Of a stretch of 34,350 bases of DNA, positions 3,268 to 27,621 are shown piece after piece. The notes under the pieces were generated by a model, which was given only the letters and a program-made list of their open reading frames with translations, made no database searches and was not told the origin of the DNA. The position numbers and the translations under genes were made by a program. The DNA is taken from assembly GCA_018830525.1 (NCBI GenBank), contig JAHJSH010000033.1:1-34350 (forward strand), written 5' to 3'. The stretch comes from Nanobdellota archaeon. Its GTDB lineage: Archaea; Nanobdellota; Nanobdellia; Pacearchaeales; GW2011-AR1. Each line of letters begins with the position of its first letter. The stretch's first letter is position 1.

Positions 3268-3678
3268 ATGAAGATTTTTATTGCATGTAGTAAGCATTTT
3301 TATTCTGAAATTGAACATGTTGCAAGAATCTTGCAAGGGGCAGGACATGAGGTAAGTTATCCGAATTCTTATGGGGATCCATTTGCTGAGGAGAGATTAA
3401 AGAATCTGGGGGCTGAAGACCATGTTAAATGGAGGAGTATGATGATGTGGATAGACGAAGATAATATTGATCCCCAAGATGCGATTTTAGTTTTAAACTT
3501 CGAGAAGAAAGGGATTCCTAATTATATTGGTGGTGCGACTTTTTTGGAGATTTATATTGCTTGGAAAATGGGGAAGAAAATATTTTTCTATAATCCTCTT
3601 CCCAACTGTTCTTTTACTGATGAACTCAAAGGTATAAGCCCTATGATTATAAATGGAAATCTGGGGTTGATACGATGA
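3268..3678 (+). CDS. Nucleoside 2-deoxyribosyltransferase-like protein
   Basis: MKIFIACSKHFYSEIEHVARILQGAGHEVSYP ... DAILVLNFEKKG ... GGATFLEIYIAWKMGKKIFF fits the NDT/TIR-like nucleotide-processing fold. Confidence 0.55.
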   Translation: MKIFIACSKHFYSEIEHVARILQGAGHEVSYPNSYGDPFAEERLKNLGAEDHVKWRSMMMWIDEDNIDPQDAILVLNFEKKGIPNYIGGATFLEIYIAWKMGKKIFFYNPLPNCSFTDELKGISPMIINGNLGLIR

Positions 3679-3764
3679 TACATAAATTTGGAGGCAGAGG
3701 ATTTTTAGATTGTCTTACGACACAATGTCGTGCGTTATCCAAAATCGGAGATTTTTGCTTATGA
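3675..3764 (+). promoter_or_regulatory. Upstream ORF/structured leader, copy A: MIHKFGGRGFLDCLTTQCRALSKIGDFCL*, overlaps rfcL start
   Basis: 29-codon ORF, stop TGA overlaps rfcL ATG at 3761 (TTATGATG). Hairpin ACGACA-CAA-TGTCGT at 3717-3731. AAAATCGGAGATTTTTGCTTATG end shared with the other copies. Confidence 0.75.
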
Positions 3765-9437: not shown

Positions 9438-9878
9438 ATGAGGTGCCCATATTGTACAAATCCAGATACGAAAGTTACGGATAAACGAGATTCTGAGTCT
9501 GGAGCGCGTAGAAGACGTGAATGCCTAAAATGTGAGAAACGATTCACTACGTATGAGCGAGTTGAATTGGACCTTAATGTTATTAAAAAGGATGGACGGA
9601 GACAGAAATTTAATCGGGATAAACTTTTCGAAGGGGTTTCCAAGAATTTAGAAAAGCGGCCTTTTACTACTGAGCAGATTGATGAGATTGTTGATGATAT
9701 TGAGGCTCGGATTTATCGGATTGCAAAAGATAAAGATATTCCGAGTTCAAAGGTTGGGGAAATTGTTATGGATAAGTTGAAGAAAGTGGATAAGGTTGCA
9801 TATATCCGTTTTGCGGCGGTGTATAGGGACTTTGCGGACATTGATGAGTTTAAGGAAGAGATAAAAAAATTAAAATAA
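9438..9878 (+). CDS. nrdR: Transcriptional repressor NrdR (Zn ribbon + ATP-cone)
   Basis: MRCPYCTNPDTKVTDKRDSESGARRRRECLKCEKRFTTYERVE, followed by the ATP-cone. Confidence 0.95.
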   Translation: MRCPYCTNPDTKVTDKRDSESGARRRRECLKCEKRFTTYERVELDLNVIKKDGRRQKFNRDKLFEGVSKNLEKRPFTTEQIDEIVDDIEARIYRIAKDKDIPSSKVGEIVMDKLKKVDKVAYIRFAAVYRDFADIDEFKEEIKKLK

Positions 9879-9879
9879 A

Positions 9880-10005
9880 ATGGGAAAAATAAATTTAAGA
9901 TTATGCAATGACAAAGTCCTTGCGGATCACCCAGTAGGTGATCTGGTGATTAAAAAATCTAAGGCAGTACCCGATTTGGAGAATCAAGATTTTTGTTTAT
10001 GGTGA
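9880..10005 (+). promoter_or_regulatory. Upstream ORF/structured leader, copy B: MGKINLRLCNDKVLADHPVGDLVIKKSKAVPDLENQDFCLW*, overlaps nrdD start
   Basis: 41-codon ORF starting 1 nt after the nrdR stop. Stop TGA at 10003 overlaps nrdD ATG at 9999 (ATGGTGA). Hairpin GCAA-U-GAC-AAA-GUC-C-UUGC at 9905-9923. Confidence 0.75.
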
Positions 10006-13000
10006 CAAAAGTAAGGAAAAGAGATGGGAGCGTTGTGCTCTTTCAGGAAAGTAAAATTGCTGATGCGATTTGGAAGGCGGCCCGAGCTGTTGGTGGAAAG
10101 GATCAGGAAAAGTCGAAGGTTCTCGCGAAGGAAGTTGTTGAAAATCTGAATAAGATTTATGGAGAATATGGAATCCCCGAGGTTGAAGAGGTTCAAGATC
10201 TTGTTGAGAAGACTTTGATTGAAGCGGGGCATGCGAAGGTTTCTAAGGCATACATTCTTTATCGGAAAAGCCATGATGAGTTAAGGAATGTTAAAGGTTT
10301 ATTTGATACGATTGAGGCTGTTGAAGATTATATTGGGTTGAATGATTGGATGGTTAAGGAGAACTCCAATATGGGTTTTTCGTTGCAGGGTTTGAATAAT
10401 TATATTGCTACGAAGATTATTTCAAATTATTGGATGAGGCGAGTTTATCCTGAGGCGATTCGGAAGGTTCATGAGGCTGGAGATTTACATATCCATGATT
10501 TAGGGACCTTGGGAGCATACTGTTTTGATGATAAAACTAAAATATTGACTGAGAATGGTTGGAAGTTTTTTAAAGATGTTGCTAAGGGGGAAAAGGTTGC
10601 TACAAAAAATTTGAAAACTGGGGAGTTAGAGTTTCAAGCTCCTTATGATAAACAGGTCTATAAATATTCTGGAGATATGTATTCTTTTGAGGGGCGAGGA
10701 GTGTCTTTATCAGTGACCCCAGAACATCGTCTTTTGGTGAGAAGAAAACATAAGAAATCTTGGGAGTTTGTAAATCCTACCGAATTTAAGTATGGGATGG
10801 AGTTTGATAAAAAGGTTTCTTGGAAGGGTAAGGATATGGAAACATTTCAGATTCCGGTAGTTCGTGGAGGAAATAGAAAGAAAAATATTGAAAAATTTGA
10901 TATGGTTAATTATGTGGAGTTCATGGGCTGGTATCTTTCTGAAGGCTCGGTTTATGAGCCTAATAGGAGGGATTATAGGATTAGTATTGCACAATCTAGG
11001 AAGAAGTATAGGGGGGAAGTATTAAGTTTATTAGACCGAATGAAATTAAATTATAATGATAGTTCTGAATTTAATATCCATTTACATTCTAAGGATTTAT
11101 TTTATTATCTAAAAAGTTTTGGAATTTCTGGAGCAAAGTATGTTCCAGATAATATTAAAGAGTTGAATTCTAAAATGATTAGGAAATTTTTGATTGCATT
11201 ATTTAAGGGGGATGGCTCTTTTTCTAAAAAAGGTGAATTATTGAAATATTATACCAAATCGAAAAGATTAGCCGATGATGTGGTTGAATGTTTATTGAAA
11301 ATTGGAGTTTGTGGTACAATTACTCGGCGGAAGGGAATGGATATTTATATGGTCTCCGTAGAAAATAATCATCTTACTCCAATATATCGAAAGAGTATAG
11401 TAAAGAAACCTTATCATGGAAATGTTTATGATTTTTCAGTTAGGAATGGTACCTTAATTGTTATGCGGGAGGGGAAAGTCGTTGTTTCAGGAAATTGTGT
11501 CGGGTGGGATTTGAAGGATTTATTGACTGTTGGTTTCAAAGGAGTTAAGGGGAAGGTTGAATCGAAACCGCCGAAGCATCTTAGGACGGCATTGGGGCAA
11601 ATTGTTAATTTCTTTTATACCTTGCAAGGAGAGACTGCGGGGGCTCAGGCTTTTTCTAATTTTGATACTTTGCTTGCTCCTTTTATTCGGACGGATAATC
11701 TGAGCTATAAGGATGTGAAACAGGGTATGCAAGAATTTTTGTTTAATATGGCTGTTCCGACAAGAGTTGGTTTTCAGTGTATGTCGGAGGATACAGAAAT
11801 CTTAACTCCGAATGGTTGGGCAGGTTATGGTGAATTGAAAAGGGGGGATGTGATTAAGACGTTTAATATTGGGAAGGGAATTGTCGAAGATAAGCCAATT
11901 AAGAAGTTGTTTAAGCGAGAATATCATGGAGTTATGTATCGTTTGAAGAATAGAATTCAAGACCAACTTATCTCTCCGGGACATAGAATTGTTAGGAAAA
12001 AATTTCAGACAGAAGATTACGTTTTAGAAGAAATTGAGAATACCTTAAAGATGAAGTCGCCCTTTATCGTCCCTATTGCTGGGAAGAATGTTTCTTTGGA
12101 TAAGAAAATTTCTGATGAGGAAATTAAGCTTTTGGCATGGATAATTGCCGAGGGGAGTATTGAAAATTCTGGTCAGAAACATAGGCATTGTAAGAGAGTT
12201 ACAATTTATCAATCTAAGATTAAAAATCCTAGGGGGTATAATGAGATTATTTCGCTTTTAGATTATTTCGCTTTGAATTATTCTATTGGAGATTCTTGTC
12301 CTGCTTTTGGCGATAGTGTTAAAATGATTCGGTTGAATGCTGAGTCTTCTCGAAAAATTCATAAAATGTTTGGGGTGGATAATTGTGTTGGCTTTATTCC
12401 TGATAGATTATTTAATTTGAGTTGTCGACAGGCGAGAGTTTTTTTGGATACTTATTTGAAGGCAGATGGTTTTGAGGGTTGTAAAATAGCGACGACGAGT
12501 AAGAACATTCTGGATGGATTGCAGCAAATTGCAGTTAGTGCTGAGTATGGATTTAGTGTTATTTGTAGGAAGCCGACTATAGGTAGAAAGGAGATTTATG
12601 TTTTGAGACTTATTAAGCATAAGGATACCTATATTCAAAAGATTGAAAATGTTAACTATAGTGGAATTATTTGGTGTCCTAATACAGATAATGAAACGGT
12701 GATTGCGAGACGAAATGGCAAGGTTTTTATTACAGGGAATACCCCATTTACAAATCTGACGATGGATTTGAAGGTTCCTTCCTATATGGCTGATGAGCAT
12801 GTGGTTATTGGGGGTCAGCCCCAGATGGAGACTTATAAAGATTTTGAGGTTGAGATGGAGATGATTAATCGGGCTTTTGCAGAATGTATGCTTGAGGGAG
12901 ATGCTTCGGGGAGAGTTTTTACTTTTCCAATTCCGACATATAATATTACTAAGGATTTTGATTGGGACAACAAGGATCATGATTTGATTTGGGAAATGAC

Positions 13001-15365
13001 TGCGAAATATGGGATTCCATATTTTTCTAATTTTATTAATTCAGATATGAAGCCTGAGGATGCGAGAAGTATGTGTTGCCGTTTAAGGATTGATAATACT
13101 CAGTTGAGAAAACGGGGCGGTGGTTTGTTTGGTGCGAATCCTTTGACAGGTTCTATAGGGGTTGTTACAATTAATATGCCGAGGCTGGGTTATGTTTCTA
13201 CTGGCGAGGATGATTTTATTGCTCGTCTTGATAGGTTGATGGAACTTGCTAAGGAGAGCTTAGAGATAAAGAGGAAGGCCATTGAGAATTTTACCGAGGT
13301 GGGACTTTATCCCTATTCGAAATTTTATCTGAGGCAAGTTCATCAGAGATTTGGGGAATATTGGAAGAATCATTTTTCTACTATTGGGTTATTGGGGATG
13401 AATGAATCAATTACAAATTTTCTTCCAGGGGAGAATATTACTACTGAGAAAGGGCATGGGTTTGCGGTGAAGATTATGGATTTCATGAGGGGGAAGTTAG
13501 AAGAGTTTCAGACGGAGACGGGAAGTATCTACAATCTCGAAGCTACTCCGGGGGAGGGAACGACCTATCGTTTTGCGAGAATGGATAAGAAGAGATTTGG
13601 GAGAGTTCTTGTTGCAAATGAGGAAGCTTATCAAAATGGGGCGAATCCATATTATACAAATTCTACCCAGTTGCCGGTGAATTTTACAGAGGATGTTTTT
13701 GAAGCGTTGGATTTACAAGATGAATTGCAATGTAAATATACGGGAGGATGTATTGAGAAGGGGAATAAGGTTTTGACAGATAAAGGACTTATTAAGATAG
13801 AGGATATTGTTCGAGATTTTGATAAAATTAAACCGATAAAAGTACTTAGTTATAATGATCAGGAAGGTGTTGGTGAGTGGGATGAAATTAGTGATGCGAT
13901 GAAGATTGATGTTAAAAAACATGATAAGATACGGGTTAGGGGGGAGAAAAATCTGGATATTGTTACTTCAGATTGGCATCCTTTTTTTGTGTTAGAAAAA
14001 ATTAAGGTTAAGTCTATTTGCCCGATTTGTGAGAAAAAGATAGAAGGTGTTAAGAGTTTTGCTAATCATCTTCGGATGAGTAAGTTTTGTAGGGAGAAAT
14101 ATAAAAATTATAATAAGTATGCGGTTGTGGAGAGAAGGGCAGATGAATTAAAAAGGGGAGATTACGTGTTGCAAAATTCATTTAATCTTTACCCTAATAA
14201 GAAAACTAAGCTTGATTCTGATATGATGTGGTTGATTGGATTTTTTATTGGGGATGGATGTATTTCTAAACTTGTGGATAATCGTGGGGGGAATAATATT
14301 AAGAAATACAGTGTAAGATTTTTTAGTAGTAATGTTAAAGTTTTGGCTAAGGTGAAAAAAATTTTATTTGAAAAGTTTGGTGTAGAAATTAGTGTAATTA
14401 AGAATGACAAGCGGAGTGAGGTTTTGAGGCGGGTGGGTACTTCGAGTAAAAATGTATTGGACTTTTTCTTTAAATGTGGATTTGTTGTAGGTAAGAAAGT
14501 TTATGATGTTAGGATTCCAGATTTTGTTAAGAGTAATTTAAATTCTTCAAATGTTTTTTCACTTTTAACTGGGTTAATGGATAGTGATGGTCATATCAGT
14601 GGGCGAGATGGAGATTTGGAATATAGTACTGTTTCTCCGAATTTAGCTGATGATTTACTTGAAGTGTTTTCTGTCGCTGGGATTAATATTGGAAAGTATA
14701 GTAAGGAATCTAAGAGAGCTAATGAGAAGAAAATTTATAGACTGAGAATTCCACAGTATTATCTCAGTTTTATTCGGGATAAAATTGATGCTAATGTAAA
14801 TGTATTAAATATTCGAGAGAAAGTGTCAAATAGGAAAAAACGACATCTCCCCGTCGTGAGAGTTAAAGAATGTTCAAAAACTAATGTTGAAGATAATATG
14901 TTTTATGATTTGACAACGAAGAAAAATCATAATTATTTGGCTGGTAAAGATTGTCTGGTTTTTGTTCATAATACTGTGTTTCATACTTTTGTCGGAGAGA
15001 AGATGAGTAAGGATTCGGTTAGGGCGATGGTGAAAAAGATTGCGTATAATTATCACTTGCCTTATTTTACGATTACTCCGACTTTCTCTGTTTGTCCGGT
15101 CCATGGTTATTTGAATGGGGAACATGAATATTGTCCGAAATGTGATGAAGAGCTTGCGGAGATTGAGGCGACTCCAATTTCTGTAGCCGATGCAGATGAG
15201 GTTGGTAAAGAGTCAAATGAGTTTTCTGGGGAGGCCCTCGTAGGGCATGACTCCTCAAAGGATGATTCTAGTAAGTCCTCTGGTGAGCCCGATACTTTGG
15301 AAGCCCCATTTACAAACTCTCAAATAAATTTAGGAGGTGATATAAATGGGGCGAACAAAATGTGA
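9999..15365 (+). CDS. nrdD: Anaerobic (class III) ribonucleoside-triphosphate reductase large chain with ATP-cone and three inteins; lacks the C-terminal glycyl-radical segment
   Basis: ATP-cone VTKVRKRDGSVVLFQESKIADAIWKA. Exteins HIHDLGTLGAYC/VGWDLKDLL, RVGFQ/TPFTNLTMDL, CKYTGG/TVFHTFVGE. C-terminal CPVHGYLNGEHEYCPKC. Confidence 0.95.
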   Translation: MVTKVRKRDGSVVLFQESKIADAIWKAARAVGGKDQEKSKVLAKEVVENLNKIYGEYGIPEVEEVQDLVEKTLIEAGHAKVSKAYILYRKSHDELRNVKGLFDTIEAVEDYIGLNDWMVKENSNMGFSLQGLNNYIATKIISNYWMRRVYPEAIRKVHEAGDLHIHDLGTLGAYCFDDKTKILTENGWKFFKDVAKGEKVATKNLKTGELEFQAPYDKQVYKYSGDMYSFEGRGVSLSVTPEHRLLVRRKHKKSWEFVNPTEFKYGMEFDKKVSWKGKDMETFQIPVVRGGNRKKNIEKFDMVNYVEFMGWYLSEGSVYEPNRRDYRISIAQSRKKYRGEVLSLLDRMKLNYNDSSEFNIHLHSKDLFYYLKSFGISGAKYVPDNIKELNSKMIRKFLIALFKGDGSFSKKGELLKYYTKSKRLADDVVECLLKIGVCGTITRRKGMDIYMVSVENNHLTPIYRKSIVKKPYHGNVYDFSVRNGTLIVMREGKVVVSGNCVGWDLKDLLTVGFKGVKGKVESKPPKHLRTALGQIVNFFYTLQGETAGAQAFSNFDTLLAPFIRTDNLSYKDVKQGMQEFLFNMAVPTRVGFQCMSEDTEILTPNGWAGYGELKRGDVIKTFNIGKGIVEDKPIKKLFKREYHGVMYRLKNRIQDQLISPGHRIVRKKFQTEDYVLEEIENTLKMKSPFIVPIAGKNVSLDKKISDEEIKLLAWIIAEGSIENSGQKHRHCKRVTIYQSKIKNPRGYNEIISLLDYFALNYSIGDSCPAFGDSVKMIRLNAESSRKIHKMFGVDNCVGFIPDRLFNLSCRQARVFLDTYLKADGFEGCKIATTSKNILDGLQQIAVSAEYGFSVICRKPTIGRKEIYVLRLIKHKDTYIQKIENVNYSGIIWCPNTDNETVIARRNGKVFITGNTPFTNLTMDLKVPSYMADEHVVIGGQPQMETYKDFEVEMEMINRAFAECMLEGDASGRVFTFPIPTYNITKDFDWDNKDHDLIWEMTAKYGIPYFSNFINSDMKPEDARSMCCRLRIDNTQLRKRGGGLFGANPLTGSIGVVTINMPRLGYVSTGEDDFIARLDRLMELAKESLEIKRKAIENFTEVGLYPYSKFYLRQVHQRFGEYWKNHFSTIGLLGMNESITNFLPGENITTEKGHGFAVKIMDFMRGKLEEFQTETGSIYNLEATPGEGTTYRFARMDKKRFGRVLVANEEAYQNGANPYYTNSTQLPVNFTEDVFEALDLQDELQCKYTGGCIEKGNKVLTDKGLIKIEDIVRDFDKIKPIKVLSYNDQEGVGEWDEISDAMKIDVKKHDKIRVRGEKNLDIVTSDWHPFFVLEKIKVKSICPICEKKIEGVKSFANHLRMSKFCREKYKNYNKYAVVERRADELKRGDYVLQNSFNLYPNKKTKLDSDMMWLIGFFIGDGCISKLVDNRGGNNIKKYSVRFFSSNVKVLAKVKKILFEKFGVEISVIKNDKRSEVLRRVGTSSKNVLDFFFKCGFVVGKKVYDVRIPDFVKSNLNSSNVFSLLTGLMDSDGHISGRDGDLEYSTVSPNLADDLLEVFSVAGINIGKYSKESKRANEKKIYRLRIPQYYLSFIRDKIDANVNVLNIREKVSNRKKRHLPVVRVKECSKTNVEDNMFYDLTTKKNHNYLAGKDCLVFVHNTVFHTFVGEKMSKDSVRAMVKKIAYNYHLPYFTITPTFSVCPVHGYLNGEHEYCPKCDEELAEIEATPISVADADEVGKESNEFSGEALVGHDSSKDDSSKSSGEPDTLEAPFTNSQINLGGDINGANKM
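10521..11495 (+). mobile_element. Intein 1 in NrdD (325 aa, LAGLIDADG-containing)
   Basis: Begins CFDDKTKILTENGWKFF and ends VVVSGN|C. Motifs FMGWYLSEGS and LIALFKGDGSFS. Confidence 0.92.
11778..12740 (+). mobile_element. Intein 2 in NrdD (321 aa, LAGLIDADG-containing)
   Basis: Begins CMSEDTEILTPNGWAGY and ends KVFITGN|T. Motifs LLAWIIAEGSIE and FLDTYLKADGFEG. Confidence 0.92.
13749..14972 (+). mobile_element. Intein 3 in NrdD (408 aa, LAGLIDADG-containing, with zinc-finger-like insertion)
   Basis: Begins CIEKGNKVLTDKGLIKIEDI and ends DCLVFVHN|T. Motifs LIGFFIGDGCIS and LLTGLMDSDGHIS. Insertion CPICEKKIEGVKSFANHLRMSKFC. Confidence 0.92.
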
Positions 15366-17524: not shown

Positions 17525-17568
17525 TCTAGTCTAATAGTTTTTATAAATGATTTTTGTGTTTGTGTTAG

Positions 17569-17658
17569 ATGATAATTGGAATTATGGAGGTAATAGATTT
17601 GAAATTATGCAATGGCATAGCCCTTGCTTGTCAAAAATCTAAGGATTTTTTCTTATGA
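17569..17658 (+). promoter_or_regulatory. Upstream ORF/structured leader, copy C: MIIGIMEVIDLKLCNGIALACQKSKDFFL*, overlaps downstream start
   Basis: 29-codon ORF; ATG is 29 nt from TTTATAAAT (17540). Stop TGA at 17656 overlaps gene ATG at 17655. Hairpin GCAA-U-GGC-AUA-GCC-C-UUGC at 17609-17627. Confidence 0.75.
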
Positions 17659-18722
17659 TAATTGGAATTACCGGAACTTTAGGTGCGGGAAAAGGAGCGA
17701 TTGTCAATTATCTAATCGGGAGGAGATTCAAACATTATTCTGTTCGAGCTTTTTTGACTGAAGAGATTTTAAGGAGGGGACTTGAAGTTAATAGAGATAA
17801 TATGGTTTCTGTGGGGAATGATCTTCGCGCGAAGTTTGGTCCTAGTTATATTGTTGAACAATTATATCTGCAGGCGATTAAGGCTGGTGGAAATTCGGTG
17901 ATTGAAAGTATTCGTTGTCCCGGGGAGGTGGGAGCATTGAGGAAGAAAGAGAAGTTTGTTTTGTTTGCGGTTGATGCAGATATTGAAGTGAGGTATTCAA
18001 GGATTGTTGGGAGGGCTAGTGCTACTGACAGGATTTCATTTGAAGATTTTATTGCGGCAGAGCAGAGAGAGATGGAATCTAATGACCCTTACAAACAGAA
18101 TATTAGAAGATGTATTGAGATGGCAGACCATAGGTTTAGGAATGATTGGACTGTTGAAGAGTTGCATTCTAAGGTTGGAGCGGTTTTGGGTAAGGTTGTA
18201 CAGGGTTCTCCAACCACTTCTAAAATTTCTAAAAGAAAAGATGTTCTTTCATGGGATGATTATTTTATGTCTATAGCTCTTCTTTCTGCAGAGAGAAGTA
18301 AGGACCCTAATACTCAGGTTGGTGCTTGTATAGTAGATTCAACCAAAAAAATAATTGGGGTTGGTTATAATGGGTTTCCTATTGGCTGTTCAGATGATGA
18401 TTTGCCTTGGGCGAGGAAAGGAGATTTTCTAGATACTAAATATCCTTATGTTTGTCATGCTGAGTTGAATGCTATATTAAATAGCGTTGGAAGGAATTTG
18501 TCTGGTAGTTCGATTTATATCGCATTGTTTCCTTGTAATGAATGTGCTAAGGCCATAATTCAATCGGGAATTAAAGAGGTTGTTTATCTTTCGGATAAAT
18601 ACGCAGATACAGATTCTATAAAGGCTTCAAAAAAAATGTTTAATATGTCTGGAATTAAAATTCGACAGTTAATTCCTAAGGCAAGATCTATAATTGTCTC
18701 TCTTGATTTAACGAATGAATAG
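17655..18722 (+). CDS. P-loop kinase-like domain fused to deoxycytidylate (dCMP) deaminase
   Basis: N-terminal IIGITGTLGAGKGAIVNYL P-loop. C-terminal zinc deaminase CHAELNAIL ... PCNECAK preceded by SWDDYFMSIALLSAERSKDPNTQVGACIV. Confidence 0.9.
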   Translation: MIIGITGTLGAGKGAIVNYLIGRRFKHYSVRAFLTEEILRRGLEVNRDNMVSVGNDLRAKFGPSYIVEQLYLQAIKAGGNSVIESIRCPGEVGALRKKEKFVLFAVDADIEVRYSRIVGRASATDRISFEDFIAAEQREMESNDPYKQNIRRCIEMADHRFRNDWTVEELHSKVGAVLGKVVQGSPTTSKISKRKDVLSWDDYFMSIALLSAERSKDPNTQVGACIVDSTKKIIGVGYNGFPIGCSDDDLPWARKGDFLDTKYPYVCHAELNAILNSVGRNLSGSSIYIALFPCNECAKAIIQSGIKEVVYLSDKYADTDSIKASKKMFNMSGIKIRQLIPKARSIIVSLDLTNE

Positions 18723-27487: not shown

Positions 27488-27525
27488 AGATTTATAAACC
27501 GATTTTTCGCCTAGATTATATTATA

Positions 27526-27621
27526 ATGATACATAAAACCATGGAAAAAATAAATACAAGATTATGCAATGACAAGTCCTTGCATATCAAAAAATCGGAG
27601 GATTTTTGCTTATGGGATTAA
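27526..27621 (+). promoter_or_regulatory. Upstream ORF/structured leader, copy D: MIHKTMEKINTRLCNDKSLHIKKSEDFCLWD*, overlaps rpsL start
   Basis: 31-codon ORF overlapping rpsL ATG at 27612. Hairpin TATGCAA...TTGCATA at 27563-27586. AAAAATC-GGAG-GATTTTT at the ribosome-binding site. Confidence 0.75.

Follow-up and report, generated by a model that had tools for sequence, protein, structure and literature searches.

Leaders in the window

The window, by which we mean the whole stretch of 34,350 nucleotides analysed, is contig C32 of a 963,380-base genome in 35 contigs, and its host is, judged from its genes, a DPANN archaeon of the Pacearchaeota type. The window genes are archaeal, among them an RFC-like clamp loader and, in this order, a KH-domain protein, uS12, uS7 and EF-2. 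The initial annotation had placed four short upstream open reading frames (uORFs) at 3675, 9880, 17569 and 27526, each reading into the start of the next gene; all four leaders (A to D, Table 1) were found there with the layout described. The distance of 86 nt from uORF ATG to gene ATG reported for three leaders is exact in A, C and D, and it is 119 nt in B. The HP1 hairpin GCAAUGRC..GYCCUUGC common to B, C and D and the AAAATC..GATTTT hairpin ahead of the start codon are likewise real, and the host genes are unrelated, as had been stated: an RFC-large-type clamp loader, NrdD, a dCMP deaminase and uS12.

The general anatomy begins with the uORF ATG, which often occupies a leaderless start position behind a TATA box. 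Within the uORF come one or two small hairpins and, after them, the last hairpin of the leader, which often has a Shine-Dalgarno (SD)-like motif in its loop, some 10 nt 5' of the gene ATG. The uORF stop overlaps this ATG. In leader B, a further module is nested in the loop of the last hairpin, and a similar nested module occurs at C22:4383, L122 and L114.

Two of the host loci have features of their own. An NrdR-type repressor with a Zn ribbon and an ATP-cone (9438-9878) lies directly 5' of NrdD (9993-15365), and the NrdD itself contains intein splicing and LAGLIDADG domains. At its N-terminus, the dCMP deaminase (17655-18722) has about 180 residues of P-loop (AAA_18-like) type, and its relatives have them as well.

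Table 1. Leaders A to D of the window, their hairpins, promoter elements and host genes
Feature	Position	Strand	Description	Basis
Leader A	3675..3764	+	uORF MIHKFGGRGFLDCLTTQCRALSKIGDFCL, then stop; TGA stop overlaps gene start (ATGA)	
Host gene of A	ATG 3761	+	RFC-large-like AAA+ clamp loader	Pfam AAA
HP1-equivalent hairpin of A	3717..3731	+	ACGACA-CAA-TGTCGT	sequence
Start-proximal hairpin (HP3) of A	3741..3755	+	AAAATC-GGA-GATTTT	sequence; covariance-model match 3707-3764
Leader B	9880..10005	+	uORF MGKINLRLCNDKVLADHPVGDLVIKKSKAVPDLENQDFCLW, then stop	
Host gene of B	ATG 9999	+	NrdD; 119 nt, in phase	Pfam NRDD
HP1 of B	9905..9923	+	GCAATGAC-AAA-GTCCTTGC	sequence, covariance model
HP2 of B	9928..9950	+	optional module CACCCAGTAGGTGATCTGGTGAT, 23 nt; also occurs outside leaders	
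HP3 of B	9953..9994	+	stem AAAAATC..GATTTTT, module GGCAGTACCCGATTTGGAGAATC nested in loop	sequence
TATA box of C	17540..17547	+	TTTATAAA, 29 nt 5' of uORF C	sequence
Leader C	17569..17658	+	uORF MIIGIMEVIDLKLCNGIALACQKSKDFFL, then stop	
Host gene of C	ATG 17655	+	dCMP deaminase with N-terminal P-loop region	
Start of uORF C	17569-17584	+	ATGATAATTGGAATTA; repeats own gene start, 17655-17670	
HP1 of C	17609..17627	+	GCAATGGC-ATA-GCCCTTGC	sequence, covariance model
HP3 of C	17633..17650	+		covariance model
TATA box of uS12 promoter	27491..27498	+	TTTATAAA	sequence, comparison with G005
Leader D	27526..27621	+	uORF MIHKTMEKINTRLCNDKSLHIKKSEDFCLWD, then stop	
Host gene of D	ATG 27612	+	uS12 (rpsL)	
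HP1 of D	27566..27583	+	GCAATGACAAGTCCTTGC	sequence, covariation
HP3 of D	27590..27607	+	AAAAATC-GGAG-GATTTTT	sequence, covariation
SD-like motif in HP3 of D	27597-27601	+	GGAGG, 10 nt 5' of ATG	

Copies in the genome and the genus

Further copies exist: with copy D alone as query, the window's genome yields 22 additional matches (E<1e-3), and a covariance-model search gave 29 own-genome matches (E<1e-3), one of which, C15:3987, is probably due to chance, with 9 of 16 genus genomes positive. These 16 genomes and the 181 of the family sample are all incomplete metagenome assemblies, and the statistics for genus and family count related copies as independent. When all 35 contigs of the window's genome were read stretch by stretch, about 26 leaders were counted, each terminating on a start codon. 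Their hosts include genes of translation and replication (PCNA, RFC, uS3, uS4, uS12, uL18 and an eIF2beta-type IF2B/IF5-domain protein), together with SecY, NrdD, dCMP deaminase, a PEP synthase-type PPDK protein, an RNase Z-like MBL-fold protein, a UDP-GlcNAc epimerase, an M50 peptidase, an FtsX/MacB permease, an ArsR-type regulator, a VWA protein and others. The same genes carry the cassette repeatedly, namely uS3 in four genera, uS4 in three genomes, and PCNA, eIF5A and SecY each in two or three genomes. Tandem arrays of leaders exist, and the mean similarity of copies within genomes is 0.65-0.93, compared with an average of 0.66 between genomes.

A 10-residue ORF, MEVYLTP[LI][LM]F, flanks a leader on both sides at C28:88814 of the window's genome, at L135 of G003 and at L177 of G006. 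It is conserved in all three genomes, and the other hosts are unlike that.

Hairpins and modules

Covariation in the genus form was assessed over 15 modelled base pairs, 8 of which show double changes, a value that none of 500 shuffles reaches; sliding the pairing partners against each other lowers pairing from 88% to 35-53%. HP1 occurs in the variants GCAAUGAC..GUCCUUGC, GCAAUGGC..GCCCUUGC, CUAAUGGC..GCCAUUAG and UUAACGAU..AUCGUUAA, its sequence being free to vary while pairing holds. Single-sequence folding is modestly better than that of shuffles (z -1.9 for D; A, B and C not significant), as would be expected of small AU-rich hairpins, and the structural case rests on covariation because the folding energies of single copies are unremarkable. 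A search of the window against Rfam at E up to 1 gave no match for the leaders, and only tRNAs reached threshold.

The 23-nt HP2 module also lies in non-leader hairpins, both in the window's genome (C1:23660, C14:11479(-), C16:5054(-), C20:38237(-) and C28:169507) and in relatives (L028, L033, L034 and L042), in several instances 3' of a gene end and, in one relative, directly 3' of a tRNA, in the order AAGAAAC, HP2, TAAGGTTTCTT. HP2 has the appearance of a small hairpin unit able to nest inside other hairpins. HP1 and HP2 seem to resemble the 3' end of 16S rRNA (GGATCACC). In an order-level relative (G023), the hairpin AAAAATCTAAAGATTTTT is not 5' of a start codon and was set aside as a non-leader.

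Reading frame and peptide

The four leaders of the window all have ATG-to-ATG distances of 2 mod 3, so that the constant relative frame described for them stands, although the wider set contains exceptions: the uORF is in that phase in 49 of 69 genus leaders (6 and 2 in the other phases) and in 63 of 72 leaders of a sister form from other genera, described below (6 and 5). Nine leaders of the window's genome with inserted modules or altered length have distances of 89, 95, 104, 110, 119 or 125 nt, all 2 mod 3, and in the copies bearing HP2 a compensating single base restores the frame. The uORF stop falls at -2 to +11 relative to the gene ATG in most leaders of both forms, with overlaps such as TAATG and TTATGA. 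Shifts of 1 nt occur in G002, in L115 of G003 and in the eIF2beta leader of the window's genome, and the uORF stops before or inside HP1 in L179 and L180 of G004, L183 of G012 and the window genome's SecY, uS4 and PEP synthase leaders. A subclass (L179 and L180 of G004, L182 of G001, L183 of G012 and the uS12 leader L203 of G006) has a different first hairpin, e.g., AAGTGAG..CTCACTT; its uORF ends ahead of the hairpins, usually at TAG, so no overlap coupling is possible there.

The peptide itself does not behave as a conserved coding sequence. Counted over single-base codon differences, the synonymous fraction is 0.195 in the uORF frame, compared with 0.199 and 0.271 in the other frames, and the peptides differ widely among other genera; the endings KSxDFC and KSGDFA before the stop recur across genera. 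Since the frame is kept through changes of length and the peptide shows no synonymous excess, selection appears to maintain the hairpins and an open frame ending on the gene start, not the peptide.

Initiation and promoter signals

SD-like motifs (GGAG, GAGG or GGGG, 6-24 nt 5' of the gene ATG) are present in 62 of 72 sister-form leaders and 35 of 69 genus leaders, compared with 146 of 700 background long ORFs, and the spacing to the ATG is mostly 10 nt. The 16S rRNA of the window's genome terminates in GGATCACCTCCT. This enrichment suggests selection for good downstream initiation. The layout initially proposed, with an SD hairpin in a uORF terminating at the start of the gene, is borne out, although the motif is found in only about half of the genus leaders.

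TATA-like boxes lie 18-45 nt 5' of the uORF start in 29 of 67 leaders, mostly at -27 to -32, compared with 0 of 67 at the same distance from the gene start and 5.6% of random places. Because these boxes precede the uORF start and never the gene start, the uORF would occupy what is otherwise the start position of a leaderless gene.

Insertion at start codons

At uS12, the relative G005 has an empty site, ...tttataaaccgaattttcgcctagattatattaag joined directly to ATGGGATTAATG, in which the promoter stands directly 5' of the ATG and the leader is absent; the window (G000) has the promoter as in G005, then 86 nt, then ATGGGATTAATG. The sister species G012 and G001 have nearly identical SecY promoters, with the site filled in G012 and empty in G001. 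Similarly, eIF5A is filled in G004 and empty in G012 and G001, as well as filled in G015 and empty in G009; uS3 is filled between operon genes in the window's genome and empty in the 15 other genus genomes; and for PCNA both empty and filled orthologous sites were found. Most sister-species orthologs have no leader. As orthologs without the cassette proceed from promoter directly to gene ATG, the cassette is, by this comparison, a clean insertion exactly at start codons, mostly those of otherwise leaderless-looking genes. When six host genes were placed on a five-protein tree, some nodes of which are weak, 12 changes were needed for 12 filled cases, and each filled case is accordingly read as an independent gain or as a site that independently survived losses.

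Some uORFs open with a stretch of about 10-21 nt that repeats the first bases of their own gene, as is seen in leader C (ATGATAATTGGAATTA), in eIF5A of G006 (21 nt) and in L175 of G006 (about 20 nt). Summed over 67 leaders, matches between uORF and gene start number 559, which none of 5000 permutations reaches (458+-16), with tandem copies included; tandem arrays make up 5 of the 12 strongest cases, and there the copy follows from the array itself. Leader D has no such copy and begins with the generic ATGATACATAAA. The gene-start copies are a hint that the target start may be duplicated on insertion. A transposase could not be encoded in elements as short as the cassettes, and in those compared neither terminal inverted repeats nor a fixed target duplication was seen.

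A sister form in other genera

The sister form was reached by a pattern search for the last hairpin followed by TAATG, and a model was then built from it. It is shorter (e.g., ATGAAAAATAAATTTTTCAAAGATACAAAATCAGGGGATTTTGCATAATG, with the uORF MKNKFFKDTKSGDFA), and its hairpin covaries too (0 of 500 shuffles). With this model, matches were obtained in 21 of the 181 family genomes, representing 13 genera besides that of the window, with up to 33 copies per genome, and some of the weak matches may be due to chance. Hosts named from sequence include uS3 (in three further genera), uS4 and eIF1, and ATG-to-ATG distances include 41, 44, 47, 50, 53, 56, 59, 65 and 71 nt. In G118, short units follow one another, each stop-start overlap opening the next mini-ORF.

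At L386, L388 and L390 of G118, chains of ORFs of about 26 nt (e.g., MIQNRSFA and stop), several of them TAATG-joined, lie 5' of other genes. Directly 5' of EF-2 in another genus (G098, L127) are two similar hairpins with no evident in-frame uORF, a borderline case. Family-level matches of model R1 at L124, L126 and L130 are not leaders, and a match in Lachnospiraceae was attributed to chance. A viral origin was also considered and rejected; pattern matches in viral contigs are chance hits to unrelated sequence, and the sister form has no viral matches.

Proposed mechanism and alternative explanations

The initial view of a portable structured module at unrelated genes is supported by the covariation, the frame and the list of hosts. 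We consider it probable that the leaders are a dispersed ATG-to-ATG fore-cistron cassette of Pacearchaeota, which hands ribosomes to the gene by termination-reinitiation. Ribosomes would initiate on the uORF, melt its hairpins in passing, terminate on the start codon of the gene and begin again at that codon, with the exposed SD assisting where one is present. The cassette would take over initiation of the gene and leave the protein unchanged, which would make it a naturally occurring equivalent of the engineered leaderless bicistronic design. Its copies would be made by some duplicative route that joins cassette to start codon, and duplicative spread is suggested by the precise filled and empty sites, the gene-start copies, the tandem arrays and the mostly greater likeness within genomes. 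Translation of the uORF and coupling are what we infer from this sequence layout, and the host may gain regulation or buffering from the cassette or may simply tolerate it. Counting against the fore-cistron reading, about half of the genus copies have no SD-like motif, and some leaders break the rule of frame and overlap.

Much of the same evidence would also fit a selfish mobile element targeted to start codons, whose in-frame uORF returns ribosomes to the gene and makes it translationally transparent, with no benefit to the host. We regard this as possible but rather doubtful. The precise filled and empty sites, the uORF starts repeating up to 21 nt of the gene start, the separate gain or loss in nearly all cases, the tandem arrays and nested modules, the copies mostly more alike within genomes and the unconserved peptide all speak for it. 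However, no terminal inverted repeats, constant target duplication or transposase were seen at the cassettes, the same genes are targeted repeatedly, many of them core genes of translation and replication, and the SD enrichment suggests selection for downstream initiation. Only tentatively, then, would one speak of a new class of mobile elements that target start codons and are neutral by translational transparency, the in-frame mini-ORF capturing a ribosome where the gene formerly started and releasing it onto a recreated start; inteins and introns, which stay silent by splicing, offer a parallel.

A regulatory leader, in which a signal sensed by the uORF peptide or its rate of translation (attenuation or arrest) would govern a growth-gene regulon, seems improbable. 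The hosts within one genome (PCNA, RFC, NrdD, uS3, uS4, uS12, uL18, SecY and eIF2beta) would make such a regulon plausible, as would the KSxDFC and KSGDFA endings recurring across genera; however, the synonymous fraction is not raised in the uORF frame, peptides of other genera are diverse, a VWA protein, an M50 peptidase, an FtsX permease and an epimerase are among the hosts too, and most sister-species orthologs have no leader. The initial suggestion of regulation by peptide-dependent stalling finds no support, given the same lack of synonymous excess, the absence of a common ligand or pathway among the hosts, and the retention of an SD motif in only about half of the genus leaders. Still less probable is a cis-regulatory RNA (a riboswitch or protein-binding leader) to which the ORF is incidental: strong covariation and the occurrence of HP2 outside leaders, in hairpins 3' of genes and a tRNA, are what it would explain, but the frame is conserved over many lengths, the window has no Rfam match for the leaders even at E of 1, no host pathway is shared, and hairpin sequence varies while pairing holds. 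That AT-rich repeats produced the pattern through assembly or chance hardly merits belief; the genomes are metagenome assemblies and C15:3987 does look like chance, but the layout is repeated in independent assemblies and genera, with the covariation, frame and SD statistics and the clean empty sites all against it.

Comparison with known systems

Dispersed palindromic repeats, MITEs and the in-frame Rickettsia palindromic elements are, like the cassette, short, present in many copies, hairpin-forming and variable in presence between species. The cassette differs from palindromic repeats and MITEs in its exact placement at start codons, its conserved frame and its stop-start overlap, and the inverted termini and fixed target duplication of MITEs were not found in it. 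Literature searches for a dispersed fore-cistron element in archaea returned only engineered analogues. As far as searched, a natural dispersed fore-cistron cassette, situated at the start codons of core genes and turning over between sister species, is therefore undescribed, whereas termination-reinitiation of neighbouring genes and engineered fore-cistrons are already known. If the coupling is true, a portable element could rewire translation in a lineage rich in leaderless genes, the cassettes would be ready natural parts, and the question would arise of how a sequence comes to be copied with such precision to the start codons of genes.

In Haloferax and E. coli, translation of two genes is coupled where the stop codon of one overlaps the start codon of the next, and a distance of about 20 nt nearly abolishes coupling (PMC10666635, PMC6728339), and an SD is helpful but not essential for reinitiation in Haloferax (PMC6728339). 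The cassette shares the overlap, of TAATG or ATGA type, and the optional SD; the known coupling, however, concerns ordinary gene pairs, whereas in the cassette a short portable element, repeated in front of unrelated genes, takes the upstream place. Bacterial uORF leaders, such as those of Corynebacterium ilvB-II (PMC10272879) and a Salmonella Mg2+ transporter (PMC8092293), are alike in that a translated short ORF affects the downstream gene; as reported, they serve one gene or pathway, whereas the Pacearchaeota cassette is not bound to any one gene and has an unconserved peptide. In the leaderless bicistronic design (BCD) of Corynebacterium glutamicum, a leaderless promoter is followed by a fore-cistron, an SD and TAATG, and full expression needs both fore-cistron translation and the SD (PMC10367133). 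Both that design and the cassette have a short fore-cistron with an internal SD near its end, a TAATG overlap and a promoter without a 5' UTR, so that the fore-cistron begins at the 5' end of the mRNA in the design and would do so in the cassette. The Pacearchaeota cassette differs in being natural, archaeal and present in tens of copies per genome, in its conserved hairpins, and in that its coupling is proposed from layout.
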